Shown here: piece by piece, positions 513 to 17,651 of the stretch | How the letters are laid out: the number at the start of each line of letters is the position of its first letter | Position numbering within the stretch: position 1 is the first letter of the stretch | IMG/VR virus record: IMGVR_UViG_3300031837_000052 | Coordinates: 1-25,519 of that record | Length of the DNA: 25,519 nt | Strand: one strand, 5' to 3' | From: a virus | Program-made: the position numbers and the translations under genes | The notes under the pieces: generated by a model | Told to the model about the DNA's origin: nothing | Database searches by the model: none | Seen by the model: the letters and a program-made list of their open reading frames with translations, nothing else

Positions 513-1697
513 TTAGTTAGTCAACCGGCATCCGGTTTCCTCGTAAAAAGTAGTTGTGCCATAGAGCAAATCAACACGGCATGGCTCAACATCGTTTTGG
601 ATGTCGTACGCACGCAAGATACGCAGCGACAGCCCCTTGTACTCTTCGCTCGCGCCGAATACTTGGTTAGCAGGTACGTTCATTGGCACGGTGACGAGGC
701 CGAAGGTGTCACGCACAAAGCCGATGTTATTCGCATAGGTTGTGCTTGCTGTGCCGGTCTTGACCACGAGAGCAGCGCCGGATGCTGGAGCGTTCGACAC
801 GTTCTGATAGGCACCAGTAGTAACGATTGCTGGGATGATTTGCAACGTCGCATTGCCGCCGCTGTCCGAGCTTGCCGTTGCCGATAACGTGAAATTCTTC
901 AGCGTTCCGGTAGATTGACGGTTTTTCGGGTTGACGTTGAAAACACCAGCAATGGTGAACACGTCGCCAACGTTCAACAATCCTGTGATGCTCGCTGTCC
1001 ATCCGTTCGTTACCAAACTCGATCCGGTTTGACCAGCACCGTTCGTAACGCCAGAACCGGCATAAGCACCGACTGTCTGGTTTTGGACGTTCTGATCTTG
1101 GTATATTTCGAAGTTGGCAATGTTGGCGAGATAGCCCTTCAATGCTGGCTGTGCGACTGCCTGCACGTACAACCCGCTCAAACCTGACGCCATCGACCAG
1201 TAGGCCGCAGGATTCAGGATCAAGCAACGCTCTTGAGGCGCTGCATTTTCGTCCATGCGCTGACCGACTGCTGCGAGTGCTGCGAAGTTCGCTGGAATCG
1301 TGCCGGGAGTGCCGACGATGTTCGATACAGATTGGAAATTGGTAATCAGGTCGAAATCCAACTGGTTCGCCAATTCTTCGGCGGCTGGCTTCAGATAACG
1401 TTCGCTGAATTCCTCAATAACAAGCGTCAATTCCTGCTGTGAGAACTGGAAATCAACGTGCTTTTGATTGGAAATCGTGATGCTGGTTGACGGCTCGGTG
1501 ATATCTTGGATAGCCAAGCCGGGGCCGGAAGTGACTTTGAAGCGGTTCGGTTTGCGAATCGTGAGTGTCGAACCAATCTTTACGAACTGATTCTCAAACT
1601 TACGGTTCACCTTACCAGCCGCTACGGTGTTGTTCGCCAACATCAAGAGGGTCTCTTTCGAGATCAGACTCGGCGTTAGATCGGTATTATTGCTCAT
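513..1697 (-). CDS. Major coat protein, P22 gp5-like
   Basis: This 394-residue protein is the probable major capsid subunit, which assembles around the scaffold into the procapsid. The N-terminal half matches the P22 coat family (HK97-type fold): LISKETLLMLANNTVAAGKV at about residues 11-30, then GSTLTIRKPNRF and an acidic helix-rich stretch around 90-120. Length is close to P22 gp5 (430 aa). The Gly/Thr/Ser-rich middle (about 205-320) is beta-rich and probably includes the inserted domain of this family. The ATG at 1697 follows AGGAG about 9 bases upstream. It lies just downstream of the scaffold gene, the P22 order. Family assignment is by recognition, not by search. Confidence 0.9.
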   Translation of the reverse strand: MSNNTDLTPSLISKETLLMLANNTVAAGKVNRKFENQFVKIGSTLTIRKPNRFKVTSGPGLAIQDITEPSTSITISNQKHVDFQFSQQELTLVIEEFSERYLKPAAEELANQLDFDLITNFQSVSNIVGTPGTIPANFAALAAVGQRMDENAAPQERCLILNPAAYWSMASGLSGLYVQAVAQPALKGYLANIANFEIYQDQNVQNQTVGAYAGSGVTNGAGQTGSSLVTNGWTASITGLLNVGDVFTIAGVFNVNPKNRQSTGTLKNFTLSATASSDSGGNATLQIIPAIVTTGAYQNVSNAPASGAALVVKTGTASTTYANNIGFVRDTFGLVTVPMNVPANQVFGASEEYKGLSLRILRAYDIQNDVEPCRVDLLYGTTTFYEETGCRLTN

Positions 1698-1737: not shown

Positions 1738-2586
1738 CTATTTTTTTGATCCCCTGTGTGCTGCGTATTCAGCCATGGTCATTTCGTTGACATGTTTCGT
1801 CACCGCTCCAGAACCGCCCGATAATGGTTTGATCGGGGCAGGGGCATTGCTTTTTTGCACTGGCGGCTTTGCGGCCATCAGTTGCGCTTTCATAACCCCA
1901 AGCTCAAAAACTTGCATCCCTGGCGGCAGTGCGGCAATGCGCTGGGCTTCTGCCGGGTTTTTCCCAAGGTGGTAAGCGATTTTTGTCCCCATCGTGTCCA
2001 TCGCCATGGCATTCGCCATAGTTTCGGTAATGGGCAAATCTCTTGCCTCTGCGACTTCGACGTAATCAGGCATCTCCTGAATAGCCGCTTCGCGCCTTGT
2101 TTGAAAATCCGACCGCAAGCGCTGTTGCTGCGCCTGCATTGCCATCTGCTGCCGTTCCTGCTCTGTTCGTTCGAGTAGTGCCTTTGCTTCGATCTTCGAG
2201 TTGTGCTGCACCAGTGCTTTGGTGTATGTCGCCATATCCCGTTGATACTGTTCGGGAGTCTCGAATTCCGGTTCTTTCGGTTCCTGAATGGTTTCAACAA
2301 CTTCCACCACAGGAGCCGGTTTCGGCGTTACTCGTTCAATTATTTCCAAGGCGCGATCAAGTCGTTGCTGTGACTCAATAGCGCGTTGCTCTGCAAGTTT
2401 TTGAGCCTTGGTAATCTCGCTGAACCGCTGATTGTGCTTCGTTTCCGCTGCTTGATCGGGCGTTGGCGCAGGCGTTTCAACTACGACTACGGGTTCTACT
2501 ACTGCCGCTACTTCAGGCGTTTGAAGCTCGGTCGATTGACCGCCATCAACCACCGCAGATGCGGTATCAACATTTGATGCACTCAT
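1738..2586 (-). CDS. Scaffold-like protein for procapsid assembly
   Basis: A 282-residue, highly charged and mostly helical protein sits between the portal-side genes and the coat gene, the place of P22 gene 8. It has a Pro/Val/Glu-rich low-complexity N-terminus (about 1-50). A long Gln/Glu/Arg-rich coiled-coil region (about 55-175) follows. The short basic tail includes VTKHVNEMTMAEYAAHRG near the C-terminus, an ending I associate with phage scaffolds. P22 scaffold directs coat assembly through a basic C-terminal helix-turn-helix and then leaves the capsid; the same role here is inferred. The ATG at 2586 follows AGGGG at 2593-2597. Sequence identity with P22 gp8 is not evident by eye. Confidence 0.75.
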   Translation of the reverse strand: MSASNVDTASAVVDGGQSTELQTPEVAAVVEPVVVVETPAPTPDQAAETKHNQRFSEITKAQKLAEQRAIESQQRLDRALEIIERVTPKPAPVVEVVETIQEPKEPEFETPEQYQRDMATYTKALVQHNSKIEAKALLERTEQERQQMAMQAQQQRLRSDFQTRREAAIQEMPDYVEVAEARDLPITETMANAMAMDTMGTKIAYHLGKNPAEAQRIAALPPGMQVFELGVMKAQLMAAKPPVQKSNAPAPIKPLSGGSGAVTKHVNEMTMAEYAAHRGSKK

Positions 2587-2676: not shown

Positions 2677-2715
2677 AAAAACAAAAAGCCGCTATCCCGT
2701 TACCAGGATGCGGCT
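2677..2715 (-). terminator. Intrinsic terminator
   Basis: Read on the minus strand the sequence is AGCCGCATCC, loop TGGTAACG, GGATAGCGGCT, then TTTTGTTTTT. The stem has a 6-bp GC-rich base (AGCCGC/GCGGCT) and an upper ATCC/GGAT part, with a single unpaired A. The U-rich tail follows directly. It lies 90 bases before the scaffold start and ends the transcript that begins near 2933. Confidence 0.85.
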
Positions 2716-2933
2716 CTCGACTTCAAACTCGGATGATTCAAATTCGTGTCCATGGCCCATTGCGGAACAATCGGAACCCTTTCGGGCTTCGTGACGCCAT
2801 CCCGGCGTTACGGTACAACTCTAATTCAAAACTCTATCGCCTTTTGTCTGGCCTGCGCGTGGCAAGAATCAGCTAAAGTCAGGTGACCGTTACCAACTCA
2901 ACCGATTCAGACAAAAGGCGGTAAAACTCTGCT
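2677..2933 (-). ncRNA. Candidate stand-alone structured phage RNA, about 257 nt
   Basis: No convincing reading frame occupies this gap, but it carries a complete transcription unit: promoter at 2940-2969, folded body and terminator at 2677-2715. A perfect 13-bp helix joins 2908-2920 and 2838-2850, and is extended after a small internal loop by GAATCGG/CTGATTC. Farther 3' are a hairpin at 2794-2808 (ACGCC/GGCGT), a GAAA-capped hairpin (AGCCC-GAAA-GGGTT, near 2776-2789) and CCGATTG/CAATGGG near 2757-2775. I do not recognise it as tmRNA, 6S, RNase P RNA or a known riboswitch. Antisense, regulatory or packaging roles are all possible. The 5' end is estimated from the -10 box. Confidence 0.55.
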
Positions 2934-2939
2934 GACGTG

Positions 2940-2969
2940 ATTATAGTGCTTGAATGTAATAACTCGCAA
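2940..2969 (-). promoter_or_regulatory. Sigma70-type promoter of the candidate RNA
   Basis: On the minus strand, TTGCGA (2964-2969) and a perfect TATAAT (2940-2945) are separated by 18 bases, with an A/T-rich stretch upstream. Transcription would start near 2933. It lies between the end of the gene at 3004 and the folded RNA body. Confidence 0.65.
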
Positions 2970-3003: not shown

Positions 3004-3240
3004 CTAAGTCATTTCCTTCAGCATCTCATGCTTCGCAACTTCGATAAATCCGATAACCTGTGTGCATGTCGTATCTCCAAAAACCGCCCAATCGCAGAGC
3101 ATTCCGGGGCGCGCACGAAGCACTATGCACGTCGCGAATTGATCTGGGTTTTCGTCTGCTAGTTGCGCTTGTTCTCGCAGCATATCGCCTGCGGATTGAT
3201 GGATTTTGCAGACTGGTAGTTTGGTTACGTTGACGGTCAT
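3004..3240 (-). CDS. Small hypothetical protein of the head operon
   Basis: A 78-residue soluble protein with no recognised domain. It starts MTVNVTKLPVCKIHQSAG and has four cysteines. The ATG at 3240 overlaps the stop of the preceding gene (ATGA), so it is probably translated by coupling; no strong ribosome site is seen. It is the last gene before the gap that contains the candidate RNA. No function is proposed. Confidence 0.7.
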   Translation of the reverse strand: MTVNVTKLPVCKIHQSAGDMLREQAQLADENPDQFATCIVLRARPGMLCDWAVFGDTTCTQVIGFIEVAKHEMLKEMT

Positions 3241-3632
3241 GTCGATGAAAGTAAATGTTGTGGTCTACGGCAAAGCATCGTTACGTATATTGATGTGGTA
3301 GTATCCCCTCCAGTTAAAACCGGTTGAACATATACCGTAAGTTCAAGAATTTGACTTACTCCATTTTGGGTTTTTGATATGGCGGTTAGAGATGGGTCGT
3401 TCAATCCATAGTAGTTCACGCCTCGATTGCTTCCATTCAGCGTAATCGTTCCTCCCGATCCAAAAGTACCATCAGCCTCAATTGATCTGTCTGCCCATTG
3501 TACGAGATTGACAGACTGGCATGTGTCACCCTGTTTCATTGGCCCCCATGACACTATCGCTGTGCAAGGGTCTTGCGCCAACTCGGTATCTAGCGTGAAT
3601 GGTTTGATTACTGGAGGCCAGTTGGTACTCAT
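3237..3632 (-). CDS. Probable beta-sandwich virion protein
   Basis: This 131-residue protein has a central pattern that recurs in small phage structural proteins: QWADRSIEADGTFGSGGTIT, then a GSNRGVNYYGLNDP strand-turn, then ELTVYVQPVLTGGDTTTSIY. These suggest an Ig-like or beta-sandwich fold, perhaps a capsid decoration or tail-accessory protein; the fold and role are inference. The start overlaps the previous stop (ATGA at 3629-3632), and its own stop overlaps the next start. There is no signal peptide. Confidence 0.7.
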   Translation of the reverse strand: MSTNWPPVIKPFTLDTELAQDPCTAIVSWGPMKQGDTCQSVNLVQWADRSIEADGTFGSGGTITLNGSNRGVNYYGLNDPSLTAISKTQNGVSQILELTVYVQPVLTGGDTTTSIYVTMLCRRPQHLLSST

Positions 3633-5266
3633 CTCTTACCCCTTCTGCGTGCGTTGATGATCCAATTATATATCTTCGTCCCAACGTGATGGTGCGAGTA
3701 TGGAGCACTACCAGCGAATAGCAAACCGCCTGATGCCGACCTGATGGCAGATTTGATGATTGAAGCTACCCCAGCGAAGTGAATGCCACCGCTCGGTGTC
3801 CAAGTTACGCTTTGCGTGTTGTGGTTGCCTTGTGATGGGGAGGTTCCCGAAAGGATCACCCCGCCTGTTGGCACAGAAACTCTTGACCTGATCTCTGCCG
3901 AAGTTCCTCCCAATACCATACCACCAGAAGGTGTTCTAACAATCCCACTGAGTTTTGCCGATGACCCAGCAAATACAATTCCGCCGACAGGTGTTCTTAA
4001 AGCACTTTTCAGAAGTGCCGCGCTACCGCTGAATGCCACGCCACCCGTACCCGTGTAGCTATATGACTGCGTGCTACTTTTGAATTCCCATGCGCCTATA
4101 TCCCACGCGGACCCTTGCGGCCTGCTAGTATTGACGATATCGACTGCGCCGCTGATATTCGTGGTTCCTGCCGCTCCCGGCACGTTGCTTGTATCCGTAT
4201 AGCCGTGATCAATACAGTCTGCGCCACTCTTGAGGCGGTAATCGTACGTTGATGACGTTACGCCTACGAATTGATTAGCATACGTCTTGGATGCTTGGTT
4301 ATTTGATCCGAATCCGATTGCCTGATCCGAGCAGTTATTCAACCCTGAAAAAGTGGCCGAACCTACATAATAGTTGGTTCCAAAACCCATGATCACTGTG
4401 TTGTGAATCGTCCATGTCTCGCCGTTAGCGGCGATGCCATAGTTAGTATTTCCTACATCCGAAGGGCAAACTATGGTGCAATTAAACAGTCCGCACGTGT
4501 CATACCCAGCGCTAATACCTCGCATTCCAGCAGAATGCGCAACGATCAGCGTATTAACGATTGTTTGAAACGATCCCGGCAAGCACACCGCAGGGGTGTT
4601 GCTGCCTGTCGATTCAATTATGCAATTCGATATGTAATTGTTATTGTCTGTCTGAAGACAGTAAGATGAGCCGCCAGTTGTATTAAGGCTAAACTGCAAC
4701 CGAGTTATGATGACATTGGCAATGCTCGTATAAAGCACTTGCGAATACCCTGAATTAACGCGCAATCCGACGCCATTGGCTGCATTGTATTTCAGTGCGT
4801 TGGTCTGCGCATTGGCGTTGTCCATGAACGACTGCCCCGCAGCGGCCGTCATTGTGATCGTGTTTGTGGTGTCAGTTGTGATACCACCGATTGTTACGAG
4901 AATACTGCTTGTCGTCGTATAAAATTCGGAGTCTGCGTACCCTGACAAGATGTATGGCGTATTCGTGCCGCTACTAGAAATGTTCGCAGGTATTGCCGCT
5001 ACGGCCGCATTCCATGAGGAGTATTGGCGTCCTCCTGTGATGGTTGTCGAAACAACGGTTTGGCTGATGTTTACATTATAAGTTCCAGCGCCTCCGCTGC
5101 CTGTCCCAAAGCTTGAAATTGTCGTGCCACCAGTTACGCCGGTTCCTGTAAGCGTCTGTCCAACTGCGTACGTTCCTGTAATCGTTCCTGCGGCTGTGAA
5201 TACCGTCGTTGTGATCGTTCCCGCAGTACAGGTTGCTGGAACACCTACGGTAAGGGTGACAGTCAT
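3629..5266 (-). CDS. Beta-helix virion or receptor-binding-like protein with C-terminal Gly repeats
   Basis: A 545-residue protein in three parts. Residues about 1-80 are a Thr/Gly-rich beta module (VGQTLTGTGVTGGTTISSFG) common in phage virion proteins. Residues about 80-400 look like a right-handed parallel beta-helix: Asn/Ser/Ile-rich strands (NNNYISNCIIES, LFNCTIVCP) closing with DIGAWEF, as in choice-of-anchor-Q type beta-helix proteins. Residues about 400-525 hold five to six degenerate repeats of 19-20 residues built on TPxGGIVFAGSSA. The tail ends in a short basic stretch, NARRRGKR. It is probably surface-exposed on the virion (spike, fibre or head fibre), which is inference. Its place between portal and scaffold genes is unusual for a tail spike. 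Confidence 0.7.
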   Translation of the reverse strand: MTVTLTVGVPATCTAGTITTTVFTAAGTITGTYAVGQTLTGTGVTGGTTISSFGTGSGGAGTYNVNISQTVVSTTITGGRQYSSWNAAVAAIPANISSSGTNTPYILSGYADSEFYTTTSSILVTIGGITTDTTNTITMTAAAGQSFMDNANAQTNALKYNAANGVGLRVNSGYSQVLYTSIANVIITRLQFSLNTTGGSSYCLQTDNNNYISNCIIESTGSNTPAVCLPGSFQTIVNTLIVAHSAGMRGISAGYDTCGLFNCTIVCPSDVGNTNYGIAANGETWTIHNTVIMGFGTNYYVGSATFSGLNNCSDQAIGFGSNNQASKTYANQFVGVTSSTYDYRLKSGADCIDHGYTDTSNVPGAAGTTNISGAVDIVNTSRPQGSAWDIGAWEFKSSTQSYSYTGTGGVAFSGSAALLKSALRTPVGGIVFAGSSAKLSGIVRTPSGGMVLGGTSAEIRSRVSVPTGGVILSGTSPSQGNHNTQSVTWTPSGGIHFAGVASIIKSAIRSASGGLLFAGSAPYSHHHVGTKIYNWIINARRRGKR

Positions 5267-5598
5267 CAGGCTACCTTGATTGTGGCGTTCACCATTTGTT
5301 CGTTCGACAGCGCCACTATTTTAACTGTCCGTGTTGGACCTAGTCCGAGCGCAGGCAAATTCAATAGGTGTGCAGTCTGCGGGTACTGATTGCCGCGCAC
5401 ACGTTGCCCAAACGAATGCTGTTGCATCAGGGTCGCAACGTGTGTCGGCAGTATGGGCGCACTGATGACGTGCCAATTAGGATTTGACAGTTCGGCTTCG
5501 CTCCAGCCCCAACCATCGGGATGCACGTCGATTACTTGTCCTGCCTTGATATCGTCAATGCGCTCACTGCGATCTAGCCCGGCGACAAGCAGTTCCAT
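5266..5598 (-). CDS. Conserved small phage protein, function unknown
   Basis: A 110-residue protein with a Trp-rich motif, GQVIDVHPDGWGWSEAEL followed by NPNWHVISAP, at about residues 20-48. I recall this HPDGWxWG pattern from small proteins in phage head regions, without a known function. It is soluble, with no signal. Its stop overlaps the next start as TGATG at 5264-5268. Location suggests a virion or assembly role only by association. Confidence 0.7.
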   Translation of the reverse strand: MELLVAGLDRSERIDDIKAGQVIDVHPDGWGWSEAELSNPNWHVISAPILPTHVATLMQQHSFGQRVRGNQYPQTAHLLNLPALGLGPTRTVKIVALSNEQMVNATIKVA

Positions 5599-5600
5599 GA

Positions 5601-6122
5601 TTAAACCACCTTATAGCCGTATGCTTCGACCAAATCGTCGCCGCCTGCATCGCGCCATACTGCCGCAACCATCGGAGTCCAGAACGTGCGGAAATCTGAC
5701 AATTCACCAGTCCATGTAATTGTCATGCCAGTCAGGTTTTTGAATGCGCTGTCGAGGAATGGAACATCAAGAAAGAATGCTATATCTCGAATCGATACAT
5801 CATCAGCAATGAGGCTCTCGAACCGCACCTTGAATGCGGTATCGTCCGTCATCCATCCTGAGAAGTCGCGCAAGTACCTGAGATAAGTTCCCTCTCGTAT
5901 CGCGGCCATGACAGTGCCGTCAGTGATGGACTTTCCTTGCTGCCGCATCCACGATATCAATCCGTTGCGCGGATCGCGATAGATGAATAGATGTTTTGTT
6001 CCCTCTGGAAATTGAGTTCCATGTGCATAGTGGATGATTGATCCAGCGTCCTGTCCAAGCAACTCAACCGATTTCAATAGAGCGTGATTACCATGTTTAG
6101 GGCATCCATTGACAACTATCAT
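5601..6122 (-). CDS. Small sulfotransferase-like protein
   Basis: This 173-residue protein has the signature order of PAPS-dependent sulfotransferases. An N-terminal strand and P-loop-like motif reads VVNGCPKHGNHALLKSVELL (residues 3-22), matching the family's YPKSGNTWL-type 5'-phosphosulfate loop. HLFIYRDPRNGLISW (44-58) matches the 3'-phosphate motif RDPRDxxvS. VRFESLI near 99-105 fits the RYEDL motif, and a final FWTPMVAAVWRDAG and YGY fit the family C-terminus. It is much shorter than the usual 250-300 aa, so it may be a minimal or degraded enzyme. It would move a sulfonate from PAPS to an acceptor, which cannot be told. It lies inside the structural operon. Confidence 0.7.
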   Translation of the reverse strand: MIVVNGCPKHGNHALLKSVELLGQDAGSIIHYAHGTQFPEGTKHLFIYRDPRNGLISWMRQQGKSITDGTVMAAIREGTYLRYLRDFSGWMTDDTAFKVRFESLIADDVSIRDIAFFLDVPFLDSAFKNLTGMTITWTGELSDFRTFWTPMVAAVWRDAGGDDLVEAYGYKVV

Positions 6123-6124
6123 GA

Positions 6125-6535
6125 TCAGGTCGCCGTGATGGTTGGCGTTAGCTTGATATTGTCTCCGTTTGCGGCTGGCGTGAAGGAAGTAAACGCTTCG
6201 GCCAAATATTCACTAGTTGTATTAGTGGCACCAGTAACGAAATAGCCATAAATTGTGGCATTCGTCGTCAACGCTCCAGTGAATGTGTACGTCTGCTGCG
6301 CGTAGGAGGCCGTAGCAACGCCTCCAGTAGCAGAAATGGACCAGCTTGCGCCAGTGAGCGCTATCGAAGAGTATCCGCCTCCCGTGGCCTCTGTATAGGT
6401 TCCGAAGGTGTCAGTGTGGGAAGGTGTAACGTTCGTGGCAAACAATCGATAGACGAGGTTTTCAGTTGATGTGACCTTATTTGTCACATATCCCAATGCC
6501 TGATCCTGTCCGAATGAGCCAAAGAAGATCGTCAT
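6125..6535 (-). CDS. Beta-rich phage virion-type protein
   Basis: A 136-residue protein with a pattern seen in small phage structural proteins. LVYRLFATNVTPSHTDT near 27-43 is followed by YTEATGGGYSSIALTGASWS, AQQTYTFTGAL, IYGYFVTGATNTTSEYLAE and GDNIKLTPTI at the end. The repeated amphipathic strands suggest an all-beta fold. Function is unknown; a capsid or tail accessory role is inferred from the neighbours. The ATG at 6535 overlaps the previous stop (ATGA). There is no signal peptide. Confidence 0.7.
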   Translation of the reverse strand: MTIFFGSFGQDQALGYVTNKVTSTENLVYRLFATNVTPSHTDTFGTYTEATGGGYSSIALTGASWSISATGGVATASYAQQTYTFTGALTTNATIYGYFVTGATNTTSEYLAEAFTSFTPAANGDNIKLTPTITAT

Positions 6536-6969
6536 TTGACTGCCTCGCTACTGTGAATGTATCCGAACTTCCGCATGTGGGAATCGTAGTCTTCTACGTC
6601 TGGGTTTCGGTTTGGAATCTCATCGATGTAGGCGCGACGAACATTGATCAGAAGACCGTGATAGACCGCGTTGACAGCCTTATCTTGCTCATTCAATACC
6701 ATCTTGGTAAGACCGTCAGGCTTTATCAGGGTTACATCAACCGCCGCACCATCTTGGCACCCGGTTACGATCCCGACTCCTTGAGGAGTCATGGCCCAGA
6801 AACCATATCCTAAATTGACGGCTGAAAGTGCATCCTTGTCAATGAAAGGGCGGCTAAGAACAACATTAAGAGATTGCACTGGCACTACTTCTAGTCTTTC
6901 GACAGACGGCGCGGTAACAGCCTCTTGACTGTTTGCTTTTCCATACATATTTTTAAGCCATTCAATCAT
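6532..6969 (-). CDS. Hypothetical head-operon protein
   Basis: A 145-residue protein with an amphipathic N-terminus (MIEWLKNMYGKAN), a central hydrophobic block around NLGYGFWAMTPQGVGIVTGC, and an acidic C-terminal part. It contains a PNRNPDVEDYDSHMRKFGY stretch near the C-terminus. I do not recognise a domain. Overlaps of 4 bases at both ends show that it belongs to the same translational unit as its neighbours. A virion or assembly role is only suggested by position. Confidence 0.65.
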   Translation of the reverse strand: MIEWLKNMYGKANSQEAVTAPSVERLEVVPVQSLNVVLSRPFIDKDALSAVNLGYGFWAMTPQGVGIVTGCQDGAAVDVTLIKPDGLTKMVLNEQDKAVNAVYHGLLINVRRAYIDEIPNRNPDVEDYDSHMRKFGYIHSSEAVK

Positions 6970-7151
6970 GATTTTTCTCCAGTATCAGGGACATTGGCCG
7001 TTTCCGAATGCATCATATCCGCCTCTTTGTGCAATGCAGCGGATTCCTTAATCAATTCGTTGGATCGTTGGCGCAACTCTGCTGCCTCTGCTAGCAACAA
7101 ATCAGCTTGGACGCGCAATAGCAAGTGCCTCTTTCGATCTGCTTGTTTCAT
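6966..7151 (-). CDS. Small coiled-coil protein
   Basis: A 61-residue protein, mostly one helix with heptad spacing (LLLRVQADLLLAEAAELRQR near residues 10-29) and an acidic tail. No domain is recognised. Start and stop overlap both neighbours, as TGATG- or ATGA-type junctions, in the portal-to-scaffold operon. Such short helical proteins are frequent next to phage portal genes, but no specific role can be assigned. Confidence 0.6.
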   Translation of the reverse strand: MKQADRKRHLLLRVQADLLLAEAAELRQRSNELIKESAALHKEADMMHSETANVPDTGEKS

Positions 7152-7438
7152 TATGTTCTTTTGATTGGCTTGCCATCAAGCACGAATTGCATAAGAAGAT
7201 TTGCTTTGTAGGCAAGTTGCTCGATGGTCTGCACATCCAAATCCTTCGCGCATGAGGCAACGGCAATCGCACAGTCAAGGCGTAGCTTCTGTTCGGTGTT
7301 GAGTGGCATCATTGTGCGTTTCAAAAACTCATTAACGCTTCGATTTTCTACGCCTCTGATAGTTGCCCTTGCATAGTCTTCAAGAGCATCTGAGCGTGGC
7401 GCTCCATGTGAATCTTCAGTAGGGCCATTCGGTGTCAT
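7151..7438 (-). CDS. Small hypothetical protein after the portal gene
   Basis: A 95-residue, predicted all-helical protein. It starts MTPNGPTEDSHGAPRSDALE and has a helical core RLDCAIAVASCAKDLDVQTI and a basic end (DGKPIKRT). The ATG at 7438 overlaps the portal stop by 4 bases. No family is recognised. The operon position suggests a head-assembly context. Confidence 0.6.
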   Translation of the reverse strand: MTPNGPTEDSHGAPRSDALEDYARATIRGVENRSVNEFLKRTMMPLNTEQKLRLDCAIAVASCAKDLDVQTIEQLAYKANLLMQFVLDGKPIKRT

Positions 7439-14117: not shown

Positions 14118-14765
14118 ATGATCAACATCGAACCAATCAAACTGCTTTCAGGATCACACGCCGATACCGGAACCACTGGTCAAGGCTGTTTCATGAACGT
14201 AATCGCCTACCTGAACGGCGAGGAACAAATCACCGATCAATCAACGTGCGTTTGCGTTACGATTCGTCCGATTGCAATTTTCCTGAATGATTTTGGAAAT
14301 GACGAACAACGCCAAAGGTTGCTGCCATTCGTCATTCGTGCAATGGGAAGCGCTACGGATGACCGCGTTGAAATGAATCGGCGTCTTGCTGCTGTCGTGA
14401 AATATGCTGAATTCAATGCTCGATTAGCCGCCGAGTCCGCCGAGTCCGCCGCCAAGTCCGCCAAGTACGCCAAGTACGCCGCCGAGTCCGCCGAGTCCGC
14501 CAAGTACGCCGAGTACGCCGAGTACGCCGCCAAGTCCGCCAAGTACGCCAAGTACGCCGCCGAGTACGCCGAGTCCGCCGAGTCCGCCGCCAAGTCCGCC
14601 AAGTACGCCGAGTACGCCGCCAAGTCCGCCGAGTACGCCGCTCGACGTGAAGCCATATTTCAAGCTGGGGTCGATTATCTTGACGAGGTTTGTCCTGCCG
14701 CGATGGAATGCAATCAAGAAATCATTTGCCGTGCGAATAAACTCATTGAACTGGCTACGGTGTAA
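14118..14765 (+). CDS. Phage protein with a long alanine-rich 9-bp repeat tract
   Basis: A 215-residue protein. An N-terminal domain of about 100 residues (LLSGSHADTGTTGQGCFMNV, then CVCVTIRPIAIFLNDFGNDE and RQRLLPFVIRAMGSATDD) has a pattern I recall from phage and actinobacterial proteins that also carry Ala-rich repeats. Residues about 104-175 are about two dozen units of Glu/Lys-Ser/Tyr-Ala, sometimes with an extra Ala. The tract should be a long amphipathic helix with one face of Ala and one of charged residues. A short C-terminal domain (REAIFQAGVDYLDEVCPAAM) follows. AAGGAG precedes the ATG. Function is unknown; copy number of the repeats is expected to vary. Confidence 0.75.
   Translation: MINIEPIKLLSGSHADTGTTGQGCFMNVIAYLNGEEQITDQSTCVCVTIRPIAIFLNDFGNDEQRQRLLPFVIRAMGSATDDRVEMNRRLAAVVKYAEFNARLAAESAESAAKSAKYAKYAAESAESAKYAEYAEYAAKSAKYAKYAAEYAESAESAAKSAKYAEYAAKSAEYAARREAIFQAGVDYLDEVCPAAMECNQEIICRANKLIELATV
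14427..14642 (+). repeat. Degenerate 9-bp tandem repeat array
   Basis: The unit is RAGTMCGCC (codons Glu/Lys, Ser/Tyr, Ala), sometimes with one extra GCC codon, running for about 216 bp. Only two positions vary (G/A at base 1, C/A at base 5). Extra GCC codons break strict periodicity but keep frame. The antisense frames are also free of stops. Confidence 0.9.
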
Positions 14766-17053: not shown

Positions 17054-17380
17054 CTATTCGTTTGCAACGGTCGGTGAAGCGGTTTTTAAATCGCTTGGCG
17101 GTGGTACATAGGGCCGCGCCGGGGGAAGCTTGGCGAGCTTCTTTAAATCGCTGATGCTGGTTCCGGTAACTTCGTGAATCCTGATCAAAGTCAGCCCACC
17201 GACGCCAATCTTTGCGCTGCGCATCTTGCTGATTTGTGGTGGGGTCATATCCAAAACCTTGGACAGCGCCGCGTCATTTTTCAGCTTCAGGTGATTCATC
17301 GCATGGTCAAGGAGATTGTTCGCAGGCGGCTTCTCGCGAACTTTCACTGGAATCAACGAGGTCGGCGGAGTCTGGTACAT
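17054..17380 (-). CDS. HTH regulator, XRE-like
   Basis: A 108-residue protein. Residues about 22-85 contain an XRE-like HTH: LLDHAMNHLKLKNDAALSKV, LDMTPPQISKMRSAKIGVGG, then LIRIHEVTGTSISDLKKLA. The recognition helix is probably PPQISKMRSAK. A Pro-rich C-terminal tail follows. The ATG at 17380 has AGGA 7 bases upstream and lies 74 bases inside the end of the previous gene, so the two frames overlap. It is probably a DNA-binding regulator of phage genes; targets are unknown. Confidence 0.7.
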   Translation of the reverse strand: MYQTPPTSLIPVKVREKPPANNLLDHAMNHLKLKNDAALSKVLDMTPPQISKMRSAKIGVGGLTLIRIHEVTGTSISDLKKLAKLPPARPYVPPPSDLKTASPTVANE

Positions 17381-17651
17381 GGCAATTCCTCTCTAGGGCT
17401 TGCTGAAGCGCTTGCTCAGCGTGGTTGAATGCCTCAACAAACCTTGAGGCGGGGCGAACGGGGATTTTCAAATGTCTGCAAACTGATTCATGGGATAGCT
17501 GGTACGTGTAGGCGGTCACTAGCATGGTTTTGTGAGCTTCGGATAACATGAATATGGCTTCGTCCAGCTTGCGAGCGTCAACTGGATCGCCTGCGCCGCC
17601 TTTGCACTTTACCCATAGCGCCCAATTTTCTAGTCTGTGGCGAGTGTTCAT
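17307..17651 (-). CDS. Q-like late regulator or sigma-region-4-like protein
   Basis: A 114-residue protein beginning MNTRHRLENWALWVKCKGGA. The pattern of an N-terminal RLENWAxWxxxxGG, a mid helix LSEAHKTMLVTAYTYQLSHE and a second helix pair SVCRHLKIPVRPASRFVEAF resembles short phage proteins that I associate with Q-type antiterminators or sigma-region-4-like regulators. If so, it would switch on the late operon that starts at 12226. This call is by pattern only. The ATG overlaps the previous stop (ATGA). It lies between two HTH genes. Confidence 0.45.
   Translation of the reverse strand: MNTRHRLENWALWVKCKGGAGDPVDARKLDEAIFMLSEAHKTMLVTAYTYQLSHESVCRHLKIPVRPASRFVEAFNHAEQALQQALERNCHVPDSADLVDSSESSREAACEQSP

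Follow-up and report, generated by a model that had tools for sequence, protein, structure and literature searches.

Morons are extra units of phage genomes that have their own promoter and terminator, and their cargo is usually protein-coding. In phage lambda, the pR'-6S RNA-tR' unit is made up of a promoter, an RNA of ~200 nt and a terminator, followed by late genes; it opens the entire late operon, ahead of the lysis genes, and depends on Q. The IsrK RNA of the Gifsy-1 prophage also has its own promoter and an intrinsic terminator before phage genes, and some polymerases read through the terminator to give a leader, while the short form is trans-acting (PMC4825925, where the Q mechanism is also summarised). 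Since IsrK does both, one locus can be both a leader and a short RNA (PMC4825925). The put RNA of HK022 consists of two stem-loops, lies in early operons and binds the zinc-binding domain of the polymerase beta' subunit, by which terminators are read through with no need for other factors (PMC9378689). Structured RNAs within phage head clusters seem to have been hardly described, and the words capsid or structural genes are absent from a review of phage small RNAs (PMC12197685).

A predicted RNA unit ahead of the scaffold gene

The window analysed here, the whole stretch of 25,519 nt, is a 25.5-kb record from a phage that has not been cultured; its minus strand carries coat, scaffold, portal and terminase genes of the P22 type. 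On this strand, a non-coding gap of 417 bp (3003-2587) lies between the end of the upstream ORF at 3004 and the scaffold start at 2586, and no convincing ORF was found in it. The next gene downstream encodes the head scaffolding protein (1738-2586, minus strand; phrog_8865, 8e-34), and the P22-type coat protein gene lies beyond it (513-1697, minus strand; phrog_283, 6e-78). The gap holds a sigma-70-type promoter-like site (2940-2969, minus strand), in which a -35-like TTGCGA at 2969-2964 is separated by an 18-nt spacer from a -10-like TATAAT at 2945-2940, giving a predicted start at ~2933. TTGCGA-18-TATAAT matches the consensus at 10/12 positions; as three 10/12 sites occur in 13 kb, the site alone is only mildly above chance. 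An intrinsic terminator (2677-2718, minus strand; -22.8 kcal/mol, z -6.0) is formed by a stem at ~2718-2684 and the tail TTTTTGTTTTT at 2687-2677.

On the basis of this anatomy and its folding, a non-coding RNA of ~257 nt is predicted (2677-2933, minus strand). The predicted RNA reaches a folding energy of -98.7 kcal/mol, whereas shuffles average -76.4 (z -4.40) and 0/200 of them folded as well. The signal comes from a 5' domain (2838-2920, minus strand; z -4.13) and from the terminator (z -6.01). The 77-nt core described below has a z of -0.39 when folded alone, a stability that is not unusual, and for this reason the case for the core rests on its conservation.

A sequence-only reading had described the 417-bp gap before the scaffold gene as holding a promoter-like site, a helix, a GAAA hairpin and a terminator, and the positions of all of these were confirmed on the minus strand. 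For its further claim that they form an independent promoter-RNA-terminator unit, the anatomy gives good support and covariation adds support for part of the RNA, the 77-nt core. It had further proposed that the RNA might be active in lysogeny or act in head assembly, and that the terminator might shield scaffold and coat from late transcription upstream. The RNA had been judged by eye not to be tmRNA, 6S, RNase P or tRNA and a covariance-model search suggested; Rfam 15 models matched no family at the gathering score in the window or in the loci L080, L094 and L102 discussed below, and ARAGORN identified no tRNA or tmRNA in the window. The sole weak Rfam match in the window at E up to 10 was BcKCsr2 (17.2 bits against a cut-off of 40), which was rejected because the matched portion is mostly the terminator hairpin and the score is below the cut-off.

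A conserved 77-nt core with compensatory changes

In order to find related copies of the gap, loci from related phages were gathered via the scaffold and coat proteins (13 and 80 loci) and compared with it by blastn. Besides near-identical copies of the window phage, one further lineage was identified, a second P22-like lineage represented by L077 and L078, whose contigs recur as L094 and L096. The blastn match in the L077/L078/L094 lineage covers 76 nt at 81.6% identity and lies directly upstream of the portal gene. The core common to the window and these loci is 77 nt long (2746-2822, minus strand), and its two copies, aligned with no gap, show 15 differences (~80% identity). RNAalifold folded the two copies into three hairpins in which 4 pairs are changed on both sides, 2 on one side and 0 are broken. 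Eight of the 15 differences thus fall in four compensatory pairs, two are one-sided changes that keep the pair, and five are at unpaired positions.

Hairpin 1 (GU-[A.C]-ACGCC-GGGAU-GGCGU-AC; 2791-2811, minus strand) harbors two of the compensatory changes, A-U to C-G and C-G to U-A. Hairpin 2, capped by GAAA (AGCCC-GAAA-GGGUU; 2775-2788, minus strand), contains two one-sided changes with pairing kept. Hairpin 3 (CCG-AU-UG-N-UCC-GCAAU-GGG-N-CA-UGG; 2750-2774, minus strand) shows the compensatory changes U-G to G-C and C-G to G-C; as the window copy, folded alone to minimum energy, favours another hairpin 3, this hairpin rests on covariation. When 15 substitutions were placed at random (n=2000), 3 placements reached four compensatory pairs and 0 reached the consensus energy. 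A pair count on the alignment gave 20 pairs, 100% of them paired, and sliding by 1-3 columns lowered this to 30-40%, while the shuffle control of the pair-count tool (29/500) has little power with two sequences. As it comes from only two independent sequences, the covariation evidence is considered good, not abundant. Judged by these substitutions, at least the 3' domain (2822-2746) is a conserved RNA, and the comparison indicates that an unnamed conserved structured RNA module is real, new as a family and not as a kind.

We also considered whether the core is kept for its coding capacity. Both copies have an open sense frame, which would encode the similar peptides LYRNAGMASRSPKGFRLFRNGPWT and FHRTAGMAAQDPKGFRLRRNAPWT, and the L094 one shares the reading frame of the portal gene. 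However, the changes in this frame are 12 non-synonymous and 3 synonymous (pN 0.21, pS 0.17), pN is not clearly lower than pS in any frame of either strand, and peptide searches of viral contigs, phages and plasmids found no relatives beyond the same two lineages. With no frame under constraint, a coding explanation of the core was rejected. A related reading, that the core is kept as a DNA site (for recombination, packaging or a regulator, for example) or as a remnant of the peptide, with the RNA fold incidental, draws on the open frame and on the accessory DNA that adjoins both core copies. It is nevertheless improbable, as the substitution counts and the lack of other peptide relatives weigh against a peptide, and a DNA site would not predict compensatory changes.

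The 5' domain is closed by a perfect 13-bp helix, an inverted repeat in which CGCCTTTTGTCTG at 2920-2908 pairs with CAGACAAAAGGCG at 2850-2838 on the minus strand. The sequence-only reading had looked to covariation in related gaps as a check on the RNA: it was found in the three-hairpin 3' domain at 2822-2746, whereas no homologue of the 5' domain or of the 13-bp helix emphasised in that reading appeared in blastn searches of phages and plasmids or among the related loci. The helix is predicted, and comparative support is as yet neither for nor against it. The domain is flanked by a 12-nt direct repeat, with copy 1, AGAGTTTTACCG, at 2919-2930 (minus strand, at ~+4) and copy 2, AGAGTTGTACCG, at 2811-2822 (minus strand), where it starts the 77-nt core. 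In L094 the repeat occurs once, as AGAGTTTCACCG, immediately past the promoter-like site. The window carries ~108 nt more than L094, with the 13-bp inverted repeat, between the direct repeats, a difference that may reflect an insertion or duplication in the window phage or a deletion in L094.

At this point the gap could be read as ordinary intergenic sequence, with a chance promoter, a terminator that belongs to the upstream accessory block and a 5' domain that is a small palindromic insertion between the 12-nt repeats. Promoter-like sites of 10/12 are not rare here, and the 13-bp inverted repeat between the AGAGTTNTACCG repeats is possibly an insertion relic. However, the core is conserved and covarying and the RNA folds far better than shuffles, and we regard this reading as very improbable.

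Neighbourhood, distribution and rival roles

The module differs in location between the two lineages, lying before the portal gene in L094 and before the scaffold gene in the window. In L094 it follows the promoter-like site TTGCAT-17-TACAAT, an 8/12 consensus match by eye that the promoter scan did not call. The distance from this site to AGAGTTT is 9 nt, the same as in the window: AGAGTTTTACCG begins 9 nt past TATAAT in the window, and AGAGTTTCACCG begins 9 nt past the -10 box in L094. Local alignment of the two promoter regions gave a score of 25, modest against a best of 24 in 200 shuffles. No terminator follows the L094 core, and the portal ATG comes within ~10 nt. A reverse-strand fragment at L094:11375-11555, by eye the start of a DNA methylase, adjoins the conserved module and follows a short ORF; by eye, the L094 module is thus again at a junction with other DNA.

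These features bear on the main rival to an autonomous unit, a role in cis as the leader of the head-gene transcript, in which the terminator would be a control point to overcome, as in lambda pR'-6S RNA-tR' with Q or, as with HK022 put, through an RNA that modifies the polymerase. In both phages, the core points the same way as the head genes and lies immediately before them, and in L094 it starts a few nt past the promoter-like site and runs into the portal gene. putL is likewise ~70 nt long, starts at ~+3 and forms stem-loops (PMC9378689). The gene order, O-like, DnaB-like and NinG and then 17307-17651, also places a small ORF near the place of the Q gene. However, no window protein matched an antitermination family, L094 has no nearby terminator to overcome, the core has three hairpins against two in put, and most relatives have no terminator before the scaffold gene. 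We therefore consider a purely cis role, of the lambda 6S/tR' or the put type, rather unlikely, albeit the most serious competitor. The small protein of 17307-17651 (minus strand), near the lambda-like Q place, gave weak sigma-region-4-like matches (E 0.006-0.3), and its distant relatives were found only in Burkholderia phages.

A riboswitch-like attenuator was also considered, in which hairpin 1 would compete with an antiterminator formed by CCGGGAUG and CAUCCUGG, and a ligand or protein would set read-through into scaffold and coat. When the transcript ends at 2702-2690, folding the antiterminator gains 8-13 kcal/mol over a state in which the terminator arm stays unpaired. However, once the terminator is complete its fold is favoured by 15 kcal/mol, the hairpin 1 loop is retained in L094 where no terminator follows, and the CCGGGAUG-CAUCCUGG pairing was rejected for being at chance level (218/1000 shuffles as strong). 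An attenuator is thus improbable.

Among the scanned loci, a pre-scaffold terminator is present only in the window phage, L027 and L080, and a terminator before scaffold was rejected as a conserved feature because most relatives are without one. L080, with a coat protein 76% identical, shows at the same place (L080:2781-3040, before scaffold) the promoter-like site TTGCCA-17-TAAATT, a short non-coding stretch of ~110 nt and a strong terminator. Its similarity to the window is borderline (33 against a best of 31 in 200 shuffles), and hairpins 2 and 3 are absent from the L080 stretch. Strong intrinsic terminators (-16 to -18 kcal/mol) were also observed between scaffold and coat in L028, L036 and L042.

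Five DNA-pattern scans of 2.9 million viral contigs identified no certain member beyond the two lineages. The degenerate patterns matched only these lineages and L102, and the rest were chance matches in coding sequence. L102:748-775, from an unrelated phage, fits the hairpin 3 pattern and is an intergenic exact match to CCGATTGNNNNGCAATNNNNCATGGAC past a long GC hairpin and 3' of a DNA polymerase clamp-like gene; it is an unproven member and was left out because an alternative perfect hairpin is possible and it scores weakly against the model (13.2 bits). In 84,980 prokaryote genomes, the strict pattern had no match, and the looser one gave 12 chance coding matches, several of them one protein stretch (PIAxQFGMD). 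A covariance model run on 50 related phage records and 399 genomes of the Polaromonas order recovered only the L078 record. Blastn of the gap, the core, the L094 core and the 5' domain against phages and plasmids found nothing real, and hits to Microvirga and Sinorhizobium plasmids proved on reading to be sequence without the motif. The family is either rare among sequenced genomes or fast-diverging.

The setting of the unit also differs from that in relatives. Among cultured relatives, portal, scaffold and coat genes are adjacent in PBR31, P26218 and VvAW1, one small ORF separates portal from scaffold in PAE2, and the gap between them in L077 is 3 bp. In the window, portal and scaffold are kept apart by ~4.4 kb of other genes, with about seven accessory ORFs, and by the RNA unit, so that the unit stands between genes that are adjacent in relatives (L077, PBR31, P26218, VvAW1). 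From this arrangement, the insertion looks like moron anatomy with an RNA as cargo. By eye, the accessory ORF block (3004-7438, minus strand), for which no PHROG function was found, contains a protein resembling a sulfotransferase (5601-6122) and one of 545 aa that is repetitive (3629-5266). Elsewhere in the window, 14118-14765 (plus strand) encodes a protein with long KYAEYAAKSAESA repeats, with the opposite frames likewise open and repetitive.

The predicted RNA unit among known systems

Our preferred reading, held tentatively and at somewhat less than even confidence, is an autonomous moron-type phage unit for a non-coding RNA, whose read-through form is the leader of scaffold and coat. Its observed basis is the anatomy of the sequence, a paired structure conserved in two phages, the absence of coding constraint and the insertion relative to relatives; the transcription, trans action and partner of the RNA we infer. 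A host-type promoter would drive a structured non-coding RNA of ~257 nt, with transcription stopping at the unit's own terminator, and the unit would have entered the region between portal and scaffold together with accessory genes. Its functional element would be the conserved 77-nt module of three hairpins, which a protein or some other RNA would probably recognise via the invariant loops GGGAU, GAAA and GCAAU, and also via the nearly invariant 5' strand AGAGUUNNACCGUA. By default, the product would be a short terminated RNA acting in trans; upon read-through by a late-transcribing polymerase, the same sequence would lead the scaffold-coat mRNA.

The autonomous unit is favoured by a promoter-like site and a strong terminator that flank a body folding better than all shuffles, with the terminator closing the unit. 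It is also favoured by a core that covaries in a second lineage with no frame under coding constraint, by head genes that are adjacent or nearly so in relatives and separated in the window, and by the position of the L094 core at another place, upstream of the portal gene. Against it stand the two independent sequences, the 5' domain and 13-bp helix without a homologue, the L094 promoter at 8/12 by eye and missed by the scan, and the orientation of the core with adjoining head genes in both phages; the L094 core, without a terminator and with the portal ATG ~10 nt on, suits a leader better. It is also conceivable, if unlikely, that the 77-nt module is a new RNA family moved by phages around head-gene clusters, where the polymerase or a head protein would recognise it and so tune transcription or synthesis of portal, scaffold and coat. 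An RNA beside the portal or scaffold gene in two phages offers a short module open to experiment, which could reveal how the ratio of head proteins is set or how RNA is used during infection or lysogeny.

Compared with HK022 put, the core is similar in its length of ~70-80 nt, its promoter-proximal position in L094 and its stem-loops with internal mismatches; however, it forms three hairpins where put has two stem-loops. The lambda pR'-6S-tR' unit shares the succession of promoter, RNA, terminator and late genes, but the window unit sits within the head cluster, and no protein of the Q family was identified. IsrK resembles the unit, here predicted, as an RNA with its own promoter-like site and intrinsic terminator ahead of phage genes. 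However, the neighbours of IsrK are antiterminator and antirepressor genes and those of the window unit are scaffold and coat; no sequence relation was found (no Rfam match). In contrast to the usual moron, the window unit encodes no recognisable protein, and of the two elements a moron brings, the terminator is strong and the promoter a consensus match only. It is nevertheless moron-like as an extra unit with a promoter-like site and a terminator between genes that are adjacent in relatives.
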